A stretch of DNA of 64,000 nt, taken from NCBI GenBank assembly GCA_944322785.1, contig CALUPW010000004.1:1-64000 (forward strand), in the 5' to 3' direction. Numbering within the stretch: position 1 is the stretch's first letter; every line of letters begins with the position of its first letter. The DNA is from Candidatus Gastranaerophilales bacterium. Lineage in GTDB: Bacteria; Cyanobacteriota; Vampirovibrionia; Gastranaerophilales; Gastranaerophilaceae. Shown here piece by piece: positions 25,852 through 32,949 of this stretch. A program made the translations under genes and the position numbers. The notes under the pieces were generated by a model. That model saw only the letters and a list, made by a program, of their open reading frames with translations. It was not told the origin of the DNA and searched no databases.

Positions 25852-25867
25852 TATTATAATATTATTG
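25852..25867 (+). promoter_or_regulatory. -10 element placing transcription start at the symporter start codon
   Basis: TATTATAAT (25852-25860) ends 7 nt before the ATG at 25868, and no SD lies between. No good -35 is visible. If used, the transcript would begin at about 25867, giving a leaderless mRNA. The same TATTATAAT string sits before the RelA/SpoT gene. Confidence 0.45.
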
Positions 25868-27400
25868 ATGAATTTTGATAATGCAATAGACAGCTTTTTA
25901 TCACCGATAGCCGACAAAATTTCAGGGATTATATTTTGCTCCGTTAATATTAACGGGGTGGAAGTTCAGCTGCTTGTTGCACTTTTAATGACTGCGGCGC
26001 TTTATTTTACCTTTAGAACGGGCTTTATCGGAATCTGGGGGTTTAAACACGCAATAAAACTCATTACAAAAAACTACGAACATAAAGACGTCATTAAAAG
26101 GAAAAAGAAAGGTGAAGTTTCCTCATTTCAGGCTTTGACCGCAACGATTTCTGCATCTGCCGGAATCGGAAATGTAGCAGGGTCTGCTGCAGCAGTTTCA
26201 ATCGGCGGACCCGGAGTAATTTTCTGGATGATTATTGCGGGATTTTTCTCAATGGCTTTAAAATTTGCAGAAGTTCTTCTGGGGCTTAAATTCAGACAAA
26301 TTAATCCGGACGGAACTGTTGACGGCGGTCCTATGTATTATATTCAAAACGGGCTTAAAAATCATAAATTATTCGGTAAATTTGCCCCCTATCTTTCAAA
26401 AATTTATGCACTCTGCTGTATTTTTGCAATGATTGGCGGCTGGAATTTATTTCAGATAAATGCGATGACAACACAAATAACCGAGGTAACAGGAGGCGAC
26501 AAAAGTTTCTTTGCAAATCAAAGCTGGCTTCTCGGATTGATTGTGGCTGTTATTACATATTTTACGATTATCGGCGGGATTAAATCTATCGGAAAATTCA
26601 CCTCAAAAGTTACGCCGGTTATGTGCAGCTTGTATGTATTATCAGCTTTCATAATATGTATTGTAAATATTCACCATCTGCCCGAAACCATTGTATTAAT
26701 CATAAAAGAAGCCTTTAAACCTCAGGCGGTAGCCGGCGGAATGTTTGCGTGCATGCTCTGGGGATTTCGCCGTGCAATGTTTGCAAACGAAGCGGGACTT
26801 GGAACAGCACCGATTGCATTTTCTGCCGTTAAAACAAGTAAACCCGCAGTTCAGGCGTTTATTGCCATGCTCCAGCCGTTTGTTGATACTGTAATCGTGG
26901 GAAGCGCAACAGCATTTGTTATTGTCGTTTCAGGGGTGTATCTTAATAACTCCGGACTTGCAGGAATTGAACTTACATCAAAGGCGTTCGGCTCTGTTTG
27001 TCCGTTTTTCCCGATTCTTTTAACTTTTATGGCAAGCTGTTTTGTTTTGTCGACCATGCTCTGTGGTTCATATTACGGAATAAAAAGCTGGAACTTCCTT
27101 TTCGGAAATTCAAAATTGACAACAAGAACTTTTCAGGTAATATATTGTTTATTCATTGTAATCGGCTCTGCAATGAACTTTAAAAGCATAATCAACCTTT
27201 CTGACGCTTTCACATTATTTTTAGCCGTACCGAATTTAATTGCGGTTTTCATACTTTCGGAGGTTGTCATGAAAGATTTGAAACGATATTGTAAAAAATA
27301 TAATGTAGGATTATTCAAACATAACACATATGAACAAGGAGAGAGAAAAGATGAAAGAACAGTGTCTGGAGATAGTGAGACAGAAATGCAGCGCATGTAA
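25868..27400 (+). CDS. Alanine/glycine:cation symporter (AGCS family)
   Basis: 510 residues, about ten hydrophobic helices. Family signatures are FQALTATISASAGIGNVAGSA (about 95-115), GGPMYYIQNG and FRRAMFANEAGLGTAPIA. AGCS proteins import alanine or glycine with Na+ or H+. The preceding TTG codon is less likely than the ATG at 25868. The 3' end overlaps the start of the uracil-DNA glycosylase gene by 50 bp. Confidence 0.93.
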   Translation: MNFDNAIDSFLSPIADKISGIIFCSVNINGVEVQLLVALLMTAALYFTFRTGFIGIWGFKHAIKLITKNYEHKDVIKRKKKGEVSSFQALTATISASAGIGNVAGSAAAVSIGGPGVIFWMIIAGFFSMALKFAEVLLGLKFRQINPDGTVDGGPMYYIQNGLKNHKLFGKFAPYLSKIYALCCIFAMIGGWNLFQINAMTTQITEVTGGDKSFFANQSWLLGLIVAVITYFTIIGGIKSIGKFTSKVTPVMCSLYVLSAFIICIVNIHHLPETIVLIIKEAFKPQAVAGGMFACMLWGFRRAMFANEAGLGTAPIAFSAVKTSKPAVQAFIAMLQPFVDTVIVGSATAFVIVVSGVYLNNSGLAGIELTSKAFGSVCPFFPILLTFMASCFVLSTMLCGSYYGIKSWNFLFGNSKLTTRTFQVIYCLFIVIGSAMNFKSIINLSDAFTLFLAVPNLIAVFILSEVVMKDLKRYCKKYNVGLFKHNTYEQGERKDERTVSGDSETEMQRM

Positions 27401-28042: not shown

Positions 28043-28067
28043 AAAAGCGGGCTTTTAGCTCGCTTTT
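28043..28067. terminator. Terminator after the uracil-DNA glycosylase gene
   Basis: Arms AAAAGCGGGC and GCTCGCTTTT (one G-U pair) with a TTTTA loop; TTTT in the right arm and a further TTTTT at 28071. It overlaps the last codons of the opposing gene at 28055. Confidence 0.7.
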
Positions 28068-29473
28068 CCGTTTTTATTGTCGTTATCATCAATTATTCCG
28101 GGTTCAAGCTTTGAACCGGTGTACCACTCACGGAATATATACTGGACTTTCGGCAGACAATACGCTAAAAGGAAACTGCTTAAACCGACATTTGTCAAGA
28201 TGTTTATTGATTTTACCGTTTTTGCCTTCTTTGCAAACTTCTCAACATGATTTAAAACAAGGCTGCTGTCCGCATTTTTGACGGTATCGGTAAGGGCTGT
28301 TTTAGAAAATTCTTCAATTGATTTTTTAAAACTTTTAAGTTCTTCTATATCCACATAAGCTCTCGGATCACGAATTGCGTTTTTCATCTGTTTTTTGTCT
28401 TCAAAAATCATTGTAACTTTTTCAAACTTTGCCGCATATTTTGTAAATAATTCATCGGGATTTTCGTCAATGAATTTTAAAAGAGAAATACCATCGTCTT
28501 TTTCCGGTAACTTTAGAGTTCCGTTTGCAATCTGTTTTAAAAATTCTTTGTCCGCAAGCATAAGAGGATCGAGTTTTACATCTATGTTAAAGGCTTTATT
28601 TGCTGTTGAATCAAGAATTTTTTCAATGTATTTCGGTGCAACATAATTTAAAAACATCATACCCAGCATTTTGAAAGATAAATCTACTGCCTCGTTTTTC
28701 TTTCTTGAAGTTACCACACGCCCGACAGCATAACCTCCGTCAATAGCTGCCATTTTTTGATAAGTTGAAAAGTTTGCGACAGTTGATGAAAAATTTCCGG
28801 TAAATGACGGAGAGTTACTATTTTTCAAAGTCATTTTGGAAAACACATCACTTTTTAACGATGTAAATGATGTATTTGAAGATTTTTGCAAAATTTGTGT
28901 TTGATTTTGATTGTCGACTTGATGTGCTTTTTTAGCAGCTTTGGTTTTGGCCGTTAAACCGAACACCATTTTCGGTATTACGAAACCCATTAATGCAATA
29001 GGAATAACCGTTGCTGCAAGGAATTTTGACGCTAAAAGTTTTTCATACAATTTCTTGTTATTTTTTACATTTTTTAAATCATTAATTGCATTTTGAATAT
29101 TTTTGACTGCTTTTTGAGGAATTTCGCCGTTTTTAATTTTGTTTTCAAAAAATTTGATATTATAATCAATTCCCTGACAATCGCTTTCTTTAAAAAGTTT
29201 TAAATTTACTGCGGGATTAAGTCCCTTAGGCGCTATTATAAATTTGTTGATAAGTTTTTCAACAAGCGGTATTCCGCCCAGCCATACCGCAGAAGTTGCA
29301 TATTCATCAATAATTCTTTCTCGTGTTGCAAGAAAAGCAACCTCTTTATCGTTTTTGTTTTCCTGATAGGTAAGATAAACCTTTGAAGGAATTTCAACCC
29401 CGCAGTCCCGGAGTATAAGAGGATAAACACTGCTTGTATTGCCTATTGCCGATATAATATTTGTAATTGCCAT
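28055..29473 (-). CDS. Large hypothetical protein with hydrophobic segments
   Basis: 472 residues, no family recognised. Hydrophobic stretches occur near 150-170 (LAATVIPIALMGFVIPKMVFG) and near the C-terminus (INILTNVGLSSFLLAYCLPK), suggesting membrane association. It holds an internal SPSFTGNF, a variant of the short F-x-G motif. SD TTGGAG lies 12 nt before the ATG. It is the first long gene downstream of the histidine-rich leader and terminator at 29520-29678. Confidence 0.75.
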   Translation of the reverse strand: MAITNIISAIGNTSSVYPLILRDCGVEIPSKVYLTYQENKNDKEVAFLATRERIIDEYATSAVWLGGIPLVEKLINKFIIAPKGLNPAVNLKLFKESDCQGIDYNIKFFENKIKNGEIPQKAVKNIQNAINDLKNVKNNKKLYEKLLASKFLAATVIPIALMGFVIPKMVFGLTAKTKAAKKAHQVDNQNQTQILQKSSNTSFTSLKSDVFSKMTLKNSNSPSFTGNFSSTVANFSTYQKMAAIDGGYAVGRVVTSRKKNEAVDLSFKMLGMMFLNYVAPKYIEKILDSTANKAFNIDVKLDPLMLADKEFLKQIANGTLKLPEKDDGISLLKFIDENPDELFTKYAAKFEKVTMIFEDKKQMKNAIRDPRAYVDIEELKSFKKSIEEFSKTALTDTVKNADSSLVLNHVEKFAKKAKTVKSINILTNVGLSSFLLAYCLPKVQYIFREWYTGSKLEPGIIDDNDNKNGKAS

Positions 29474-29519
29474 TTAACTTCGTTTCTCCAATTCTAATTT
29501 AATTGCACCCATGACGGGC

Positions 29520-29564
29520 AAAAAATAACCTTTCGCATTCATTAATCCTGAGAAAGGCTATTTT
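29520..29564 (-). terminator. Attenuator-like terminator upstream of the 28055 gene
   Basis: On the minus strand, a stem AAAATA-CCTTTC type (12 bp with one mismatch, arms 29522-29534 and 29552-29564, 17-nt loop) is followed by six T (29520-29525). It lies between a His-codon-rich leader ORF and the large gene, the layout of an attenuator. Confidence 0.7.
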
Positions 29565-29606
29565 CTTTTTTAGAATTGAATTGATTTTAAAACTTTTGCG
29601 AAACCA

Positions 29607-29678
29607 TCAATTCATAGCCCGTCCCAGGTTGCTATGACAATGATGATGATGAAGTTTTAAATCAAATATTTTTTTCAT
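29607..29678 (-). CDS. His-rich leader peptide candidate
   Basis: A 23-codon ORF starts 7 nt after AAAGGA on the minus strand and contains HHHHCH (CAT CAT CAT CAT TGT CAT) at codons 10-15. Just upstream of the His run, AAGTTTTAAATC (plus 29652-29663) pairs almost perfectly with GATTTTAAAACTT (29583-29595) beyond the stop. A terminator follows at 29520-29564. These are the parts of a translation-coupled attenuator. The downstream gene is not a recognised histidine gene. Confidence 0.55.
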   Translation of the reverse strand: MKKIFDLKLHHHHCHSNLGRAMN

Positions 29679-29729
29679 TAAGTTTCCTTTTAAGATAACA
29701 TTAACAGGAAGTTTATAAAAATTCAAGTC

Positions 29730-30738: not shown

Positions 30739-32949
30739 ATGTCAGAAAAACCGCTTTTCGATGAAATAAAAGAAAAATTAATTGCTCAAAACAGAGATGA
30801 TGAAGATATAAAACAAATAGAAAAGGCTTATCTTTTTGCAAAAAAACTTCATGAAGGGCAATACCGCATATCGGAAGAACCTTACATCATCCACCCTGTT
30901 GAAGTTGCAAAAATTCTTGTTGATTTAAAAGTTGACACTCATACTCTTATGGCTGCATTTTTGCATGATATTCTTGAAGATACTGACACAAAACCCGAGG
31001 AGATAAAAGAACTTTTCGGCGAAGATGTCCTAAATCTTGTTCAGGGTGTCACGAAACTCGGCAAATTACAGTTTAAATCAAACGAAGAACGTCAGGCTGA
31101 AAATTTCCGCAGACTTTTTATTGCAATGGCAAATGATATAAGGATAATTTTCCTTAAACTTGCCGACCGTCTTCACAATATGAGAACTTTGAACTTTATG
31201 GCGGCACCCAAACAGCAGAAAATAGCACGTGAAACTCTTGATATTTTTGCTCCTCTTGCAAACCGCCTCGGTATCGGACGGATTAAAGCGGAACTTGAAG
31301 ATTTATCTTTAAGATATCTTGAACCTGACAAATATTTTGAAATTGCACAGCTTGTATCTCAAACAAAAGCCGAACGGGAAATGACAGTTCAGCTTTTGAT
31401 AGACAAAATTTCGCAGGATGTTAAAAAAAGCGGAATTAACGCACAAATCACGGGACGGGCAAAACATTATTACAGCATTTACAGCAAGATGAAACGACTG
31501 AATATAGCTTTTCATGATTTGTACGATATAACTGCTGTTCGAGTAATTGTTGACACGGAAAAAGAGTGCTATGAAGTTCTCGGACTTATACATTCACAAT
31601 TTAAACCTATTCCCGGACGATTTAAAGACTATATCGCAATGCCCAAAGGCAACATGTATCAGTCACTTCACACTTCTGTCATAGGCCCCCGCTCAAAACC
31701 TCTTGAAGTTCAAATCCGGACATGGGAAATGCATGAAGTTGCTGAATTCGGTGTGGCAGCACACTGGCGCTACAAAGAAAAAGGTTCTCAAAAAGCCAAC
31801 AATCCGGCCGATATGCAGTTCAGCTGGATGAGAAAAATGGCGGAATATGATAAAGACATGACTAATGCGCAGGACTATGTAAATTCCGTTAAATTAGACC
31901 TTTTTTCCGATCAGGTTTTTGCATTTACGCCTAACGGTGATGTACTTGATTTGCCGGTAAACGCAACTCCCGTTGACTTTGCCTACAGAATTCACTCCGA
32001 TGTCGGTCATAGAACCGTCGGCGCTCTTATAAACGGACGGATTGCACAGCTTGATACAAAATTAAACAACGGGGATATTGTTGAAATTCTTACATCAAAA
32101 ACTCAGGCGCCGAGACTTGACTGGCTTAATTTCGTTGTAACAAAGCAGGCATCATCAAAAATCAAACAGTGGTTCAAAAAGAACAACCGTGAAGATCATA
32201 TTGAAGTCGGTAAAGCAAATCTTGAACATGAACTCACCAAAGCTGTTTTTGATGAATATGTAAAATCAGGCGAATTTGACAAAGCTGCAGTTGCAATGAA
32301 CTATCAATCGGCAGATGATTTGTTCGCTGCATTAGGTTATGGTGAAACAACTTTAAACAAAATTATAAACAAGCTTAAAAAACCTGAAAAGAAAAATATT
32401 GAAAATAACTTCCACACAAGCAGACGCAAAAAATCTGAAAAAGATATTGTAGGTCTTGAAGGTTTGATGTATTCTTTTGCCCGCTGCTGTTCACCCATTC
32501 CGGGAGAACCGATTGTGGGTGTTGTTACCCGTTCAAAAGGGGTTTCCGTCCACAGAATTGACTGCAAAACACTTGAAAATGTTCCGCCGGAAAGAATGAT
32601 GGATATTCACTGGTCAGGCGATCATACGACAAAAACTTACAGTACAACAATCCGAATTGAAACCGCAGAAAAAATGGGACTTTTAAAAGATATTATCGCC
32701 GCTGTTTCGGATAACAACACAAATATAAACTATGCAAACGTCAAATCCAAAAATAACAAAATCGGTATTGTTGAACTGGGAATTGAATTAAACAATATTG
32801 ACACGTTAAAAAAAGTTATCAACAGTATTCAATCAATTCCCGATGTTTACAGCGTAAAACGTATTCAGACTTCATACGCTCATTCTCATCAGGCAAGAAA
32901 GCCTCAGAACAACTCAAAACGCCCGTCCAAAAACCGCAAGACTAAATAA
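30739..32949 (+). CDS. RelA/SpoT-family (p)ppGpp synthetase/hydrolase
   Basis: 736 residues. An HD hydrolase domain (AAFLHDILEDTDTKPEEI, about residue 75) and a synthetase domain (ITGRAKHYYSIYSKMKR ... DYIAMPKGNMYQSLHTSVIG) are followed by a TGS domain (FAFTPNGDVLDLPVNATPVDFAYRIH) and a C-terminal ACT domain. HD and synthetase motifs both look intact, so a bifunctional stringent-response enzyme is likely. The only enzyme of this type in the window. Confidence 0.95.
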   Translation: MSEKPLFDEIKEKLIAQNRDDEDIKQIEKAYLFAKKLHEGQYRISEEPYIIHPVEVAKILVDLKVDTHTLMAAFLHDILEDTDTKPEEIKELFGEDVLNLVQGVTKLGKLQFKSNEERQAENFRRLFIAMANDIRIIFLKLADRLHNMRTLNFMAAPKQQKIARETLDIFAPLANRLGIGRIKAELEDLSLRYLEPDKYFEIAQLVSQTKAEREMTVQLLIDKISQDVKKSGINAQITGRAKHYYSIYSKMKRLNIAFHDLYDITAVRVIVDTEKECYEVLGLIHSQFKPIPGRFKDYIAMPKGNMYQSLHTSVIGPRSKPLEVQIRTWEMHEVAEFGVAAHWRYKEKGSQKANNPADMQFSWMRKMAEYDKDMTNAQDYVNSVKLDLFSDQVFAFTPNGDVLDLPVNATPVDFAYRIHSDVGHRTVGALINGRIAQLDTKLNNGDIVEILTSKTQAPRLDWLNFVVTKQASSKIKQWFKKNNREDHIEVGKANLEHELTKAVFDEYVKSGEFDKAAVAMNYQSADDLFAALGYGETTLNKIINKLKKPEKKNIENNFHTSRRKKSEKDIVGLEGLMYSFARCCSPIPGEPIVGVVTRSKGVSVHRIDCKTLENVPPERMMDIHWSGDHTTKTYSTTIRIETAEKMGLLKDIIAAVSDNNTNINYANVKSKNNKIGIVELGIELNNIDTLKKVINSIQSIPDVYSVKRIQTSYAHSHQARKPQNNSKRPSKNRKTK

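Follow-up and report, generated by a model that had tools for sequence, protein, structure and literature searches.

A putative histidine-specific attenuator precedes the gene for an almost histidine-free protein in Gastranaerophilales

The leader region and its alternative RNA structures

The DNA analyzed here (the window, a stretch of 64,000 nt) comes from a genome of the Gastranaerophilales (Vampirovibrionia). On its minus strand, a leader ORF preceded by a Shine-Dalgarno (SD) sequence starts 205 bases upstream of a gene for an uncharacterized protein (28055-29473, ATG at 29473), and this ORF, with its SD and its position ahead of the controlled gene, is translatable by prediction. The same 23-codon, His-rich ORF had been picked out in the original prediction, made from the sequence of the window, and is conserved in all 116 orthologues read. 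The features of the locus are as follows:

29684-29689, minus strand: SD of the leader ORF, AAGGAA (from the sequence)
29607-29678, minus strand: leader ORF of 23 codons, MKKIFDLKLHHHHCHSNLGRAMN-stop, with its ATG at 29678 (orthologous leader in 116/116 loci read)
29634-29651, minus strand: putative regulatory codons CAT CAT CAT CAT TGT CAT (His4-Cys-His), CATCATCATCATTGTCAT (from the sequence)
29631-29636, minus strand: segment 1 (CATAGC), pairing with GCTATG of segment 2 (fold of 29600-29650)
29614-29628, minus strand: segment 2 (CCTGGGACGGGCTAT), 5' arm of the antiterminator (pairs with segment 3 in the anchored comparison)
29570-29578, minus strand: anti-SD (CAATTCTAA) (folds, and cognate versus permuted energies)
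29547-29561, minus strand: segment 3 (ATAGCCTTTCTCAGG), common to antiterminator and terminator (folds and pairing comparison)
29525-29534, minus strand: segment 4 (GAAAGGTTAT), 3' arm of the intrinsic terminator (fold of 29512-29560)
29520-29525, minus strand: U-tract of the terminator, six T (from the sequence; U-tract in 47/75 relatives)
29486-29497, minus strand: ribosome-binding region of the controlled gene (TTAGAATTGGAG), sequestered by the anti-SD (folds and energies)
28055-29473, minus strand: controlled gene, 472 aa, uncharacterized, mostly helical and almost histidine-free (sequence, model and composition)

Folding of the region 29494-29640 gave z = -6.0, and none of 200 shuffled sequences was equally stable. 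The segment from 29600 to 29650 folds with -15.9 kcal/mol (z -2.9), and the outer stem of this fold involves the His codons and bases around the leader stop. The original prediction had the sequence just before the run pairing with a segment after the stop; this stands in so far as the His run itself pairs around the stop, but both the antiterminator, with its covariation, and the switch at the anti-SD had been overlooked. The predicted intrinsic terminator is present between leader and gene, as a hairpin at about 29526-29560 (-10.8 kcal/mol for the fold of 29512-29560) followed by six T at 29520-29525; a simple terminator scan, with a loop limit of 8, did not list it. Since segment 3 pairs with either segment 2 or segment 4, antiterminator and terminator are mutually exclusive. 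The anti-SD likewise has alternative partners, TTAGAATTG ahead of the gene or GAATTGATG at the leader end, so that the competing folds found within the window set an antiterminator against terminator or SD-sequestering structures.

A CAY4 run in a short ATG-started ORF was found nowhere else in the genome of the window; the scan for such ORFs turned up a 20-aa ORF in another genome, G082. A promoter was suspected at a conserved TTGAA box, and a sigma-70 scan gave no match there. An Rfam scan of the window returned no family at gathering score, including the histidine operon leader and the T-box.

Conservation of the leader and covariation of its pairings

Leaders were first read upstream of 15 orthologues from named MAGs (46-80% identity over the best segment), where all 15 had one, and the sample was then extended to whole genomes of the order, giving 116 orthologous loci. 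The records encoding orthologues are mostly Gastranaerophilales or Melainabacteria MAGs. Every one of the 116 loci has its leader, with no fewer than three His codons (range 3-7, mostly 4 or 5), so the ORF in the window is no chance occurrence; two of these leaders had been missed by the automatic call and were settled on inspection (L047, MIISNVIKFHHHHHCNLKRL; L147, MENLIQKKLHHQHR). An A/G-rich SD lies upstream of most leaders. Over all leaders, CAT is used 469 times and CAC 30 times. Residues preceding the run are variable and the His codons are the conserved feature, while positions within the run that are not His are mostly N, T, L, I or S; few leaders contain a Cys, and cysteine, offered originally as the other possible signal, is not supported.

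One could suppose that pairing within the RNA (CAUCAU with AUGAUG or UUGAUGG near the stop) is what maintains the CAT repeats and that translation of the leader has no regulatory part, a view that draws on the pairing of the His run around the leader stop in the window. We regard it as very unlikely. The repeat is read as His throughout, the Ile and Ser frames never being used, CAC substitutes for CAT, start codons are conserved, the run is interrupted in frame by non-His codons, and the His depletion of the target (described below) would be left unexplained. It is even harder to credit that the leader is a functional metal-binding peptide and that metal, not histidine, is sensed. His with an occasional Cys (HHHHCH) could bind metal, but Cys is rare and the other residues of the run are those listed above; terminator/antiterminator and SD switches fit the position of a ribosome and not a free peptide, and the gene tracks the loss of his genes.

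Covariation was assessed in 75 dereplicated relatives by anchoring segments 2 and 3 on their conserved CC and GG and proceeding outward without gaps. At least 12 of the 13 pairs of the segment 2:3 helix are kept in 54 of the 75, with compensatory changes; at position 3 the pairs are GC (48), TA (14), CG (6), AT (6) and GT (1), so that 100% are canonical, compared with 54% in shuffles. The mean duplex energy is -20.2 kcal/mol for cognate and -12.5 kcal/mol for non-cognate partners, and the summed duplex energy is -1513.6 compared with -1058.8 for the best of 5000 permutations, the variation in these segments being partly due to common descent. The SD:anti-SD pairing gave -10.9 kcal/mol for cognate and -8.7 kcal/mol for permuted partners (best of 5000 permutations, -9.5), with a closer match within species than between them. 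In one clade, GGAG/CTCC has been substituted at the SD, the anti-SD and the leader mimic alike.

An intrinsic terminator precedes the gene in the window, as it does in 47 of the 75 relatives. The remaining 28 lack the U-tract, so control there is probably translational; relatives without the U-tract still keep the SD-sequestering arm. Loss of the His codons or of the terminator in close relatives had been named in advance as evidence against attenuation: the His codons are never lost, but the terminator U-tract is in some. In two groups (L053, L056, L091, L092, L114, L127, L129, L137 and L147), both the run of His codons and the gene after it are retained, but the leader RNA is built differently, for example CTGGGCTAGGCGCTAATGATGG with GTTAGCACCGATGCCC; their pairings have apparently been remade.

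The controlled protein and histidine auxotrophy

The controlled protein is probably membrane-associated and has only two clear hydrophobic segments. Searches of Pfam, NCBIfam and PDB sequences gave no confident relative, matches outside the order are faint, and a structure model of moderate quality (pLDDT 75.8), mostly helical, found no fold relative with Foldseek (best E = 1); no similarity to transporters was seen by sequence or fold. An ancient duplication within the protein encoded at 28055-29473 may have given rise to its two halves, both of which have a hydrophobic stretch with PK at their end; the internal repeat is weak (hhalign probability 34). Near the locus, on the other strand, are genes for a RelA/SpoT homologue (30739-32949) and an AgcS amino-acid carrier (25865-27400). 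A second DNA match in the window's genome was discarded, the region being unrelated and having no leader.

His makes up 0.06% of residues in 113 orthologues versus 1.59% in the background (121,744 residues of the same genome as the window), a 27-fold depletion. There is no His in 93 of the proteins, one in 13 and two in 7, the window's own protein being among those with two. Other residues lie at 0.46-1.43-fold of background, none depleted beyond about two-fold. A protein almost without His can be synthesized while histidine is short.

The His-leader genes form one clade (support 100/100), and the His-depleted branch of the protein tree is the same branch. Their nearest homologues come from several families of the order, prototrophs and auxotrophs alike, contain 1.03% His, and have a leader ending NLxWGL-stop, so leader type follows protein phylogeny. 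The NLxWGL codons change synonymously, which indicates that it is the peptide that is conserved. The paralogue leaders (at L068, L083, L060, L061, L184-L199 and others, and at G000:C3:238823 in the window's genome) have about 24-35 codons, end in NL(I/V/L/S/E)WGL-stop and often carry RR near the start; nascent-chain arrest and a Trp/Arg-sensing leader are candidate explanations.

Neither hisD nor hisB was found in the window's genome or in the other genomes searched in its genus. Within the family, the gene is present in 118 of 137 genomes without hisD (absent in 19) and in just 2 of 33 with it (absent in 31), giving p = 1e-18 in a Fisher test, which ignores phylogeny; within-genus permutation gave 16/20,000, a value that rests on four mixed genera (concordance of hisD and gene, 36/42). 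The presence of hisB matches that of hisD in 32/33. The two hisD-bearing genomes with the gene are G082 and G163. In the latter (G163:C10:29542-32376), hisD is near hisB and scores above the hisD of relatives, in which the two genes are mostly far apart, and the his cluster may have been re-acquired after an earlier loss of the pathway in this lineage. No convincing case of a His leader beside hisD was seen in prototrophic relatives, and a literature search on histidine auxotrophy in Gastranaerophilales found nothing relevant. The gene has no family or fold match that would place it in his biosynthesis or transport, and its presence tracks the loss of hisD and hisB. Why the target is not a his gene is likely explained by a host genus without histidine biosynthesis genes and by a target that is nearly free of His and almost confined to such auxotrophs.

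Proposed mechanism and comparison with known systems

Conservation and covariation, seen in the leader, its His codons, the alternative pairings, the His depletion of the product and the association with his-gene loss, argue for a histidine-specific, ribosome-mediated attenuator and for a role of the membrane-associated protein in histidine shortage in auxotrophs, a reading to which we give a probability of about 0.8. The predicted response to charged His-tRNA is strongly supported by the conserved His codons and the covarying, mutually exclusive pairings. How the switch answers to histidine, in what order the steps occur and what the protein does are inferred, and the logic is that of the established attenuator model (PMC1183508, PMC9413887). 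With ample charged His-tRNA, the ribosome would translate the His codons, run on to the leader stop and cover segment 2, leaving segment 3 to pair with segment 4 and end transcription, and the anti-SD to pair with the SD of the gene and block translation. When His-tRNA is short, the ribosome would stall on the His run and cover segment 1; segment 3 would then be paired to segment 2, and GAATTGATG at the leader end would occupy the anti-SD, so that transcription reads through and the SD of the gene is free.

Alternative RNA structures and SD sequestration also resemble translation-attenuation leaders, and the ermC leader senses global slow-down (PMC2965389), which raises the question of whether this leader responds to a general slowing of translation, the His codons being incidental. 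This is unlikely, given His codons conserved over 116 loci while the preceding residues vary, a depletion of the protein that is specific to His, and a gene that tracks his-gene loss.

What the protein does under histidine shortage is a separate matter. Its association with auxotrophs suggests acquisition of histidine or of His-containing peptides as the likeliest role, to which we give roughly even odds. A fuller version, in which the protein is a shortage-induced histidine-acquisition protein of an undescribed family, purged of His and grouped with the NLxWGL-leader paralogues in a broader family of membrane proteins under leader-peptide control, is tentative. An attenuator working as proposed could instead serve a structural, dormancy or contact protein made under histidine shortage, a possibility we rate at somewhat under even: similarity to transporters is lacking in sequence and fold, there are just two clear hydrophobic segments, and prototrophs have paralogues under a different leader, but near-exclusivity to His auxotrophs speaks for a function tied specifically to the supply of histidine.

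If the attenuator reading is correct, a hypothetical protein from gut bacteria, most of them uncultured, becomes a testable candidate for a histidine-shortage gene in histidine auxotrophs, and the leader would predict the signal for a protein without known relatives. His-codon attenuation would extend to the Vampirovibrionia, with a switch that moves between transcription and translation control inside one family and with unusually strong avoidance of the cognate amino acid outside biosynthesis.

The closest known system is the his operon leader (hisL) of Proteobacteria, which also has a short ORF with a His run, mutually exclusive hairpins and an intrinsic terminator (PMC9413887). Unlike hisL, the leader in the window controls one uncharacterized protein instead of a biosynthetic pathway, its host genomes have neither hisD nor hisB, and SD sequestration is added to termination or replaces it; some known attenuators likewise sequester the RBS rather than terminate (PMC9413887). 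Beyond Proteobacteria, His-codon leaders occur in Firmicutes, as leader peptides of hisZ and a hisS paralogue in bacilli (PMC2965389) and of his operons in the B. cereus group, Eubacteriales and Erysipelotrichales (PMC9413887), whereas the present case lies in Vampirovibrionia, with an unrelated target gene that is tied to auxotrophy. In auxotrophic Lactobacillales, histidine transporters are under T-box control (PMC9413887), and there too an auxotroph's gene is subject to an RNA switch for histidine shortage; the window, however, has no T-box, its target has no transporter similarity and the sensor is a leader peptide. Amino-acid biosynthetic enzymes show low cognate bias, the scarce amino acid being avoided (PMC4209129), and here as well a protein needed under shortage avoids that amino acid, but the depletion is 27-fold, in auxotrophs, and the protein is no known biosynthetic enzyme. 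The principle of a histidine attenuator is thus a known one, and what is new is its target, its lineage, its two-tier output and its histidine-free product.
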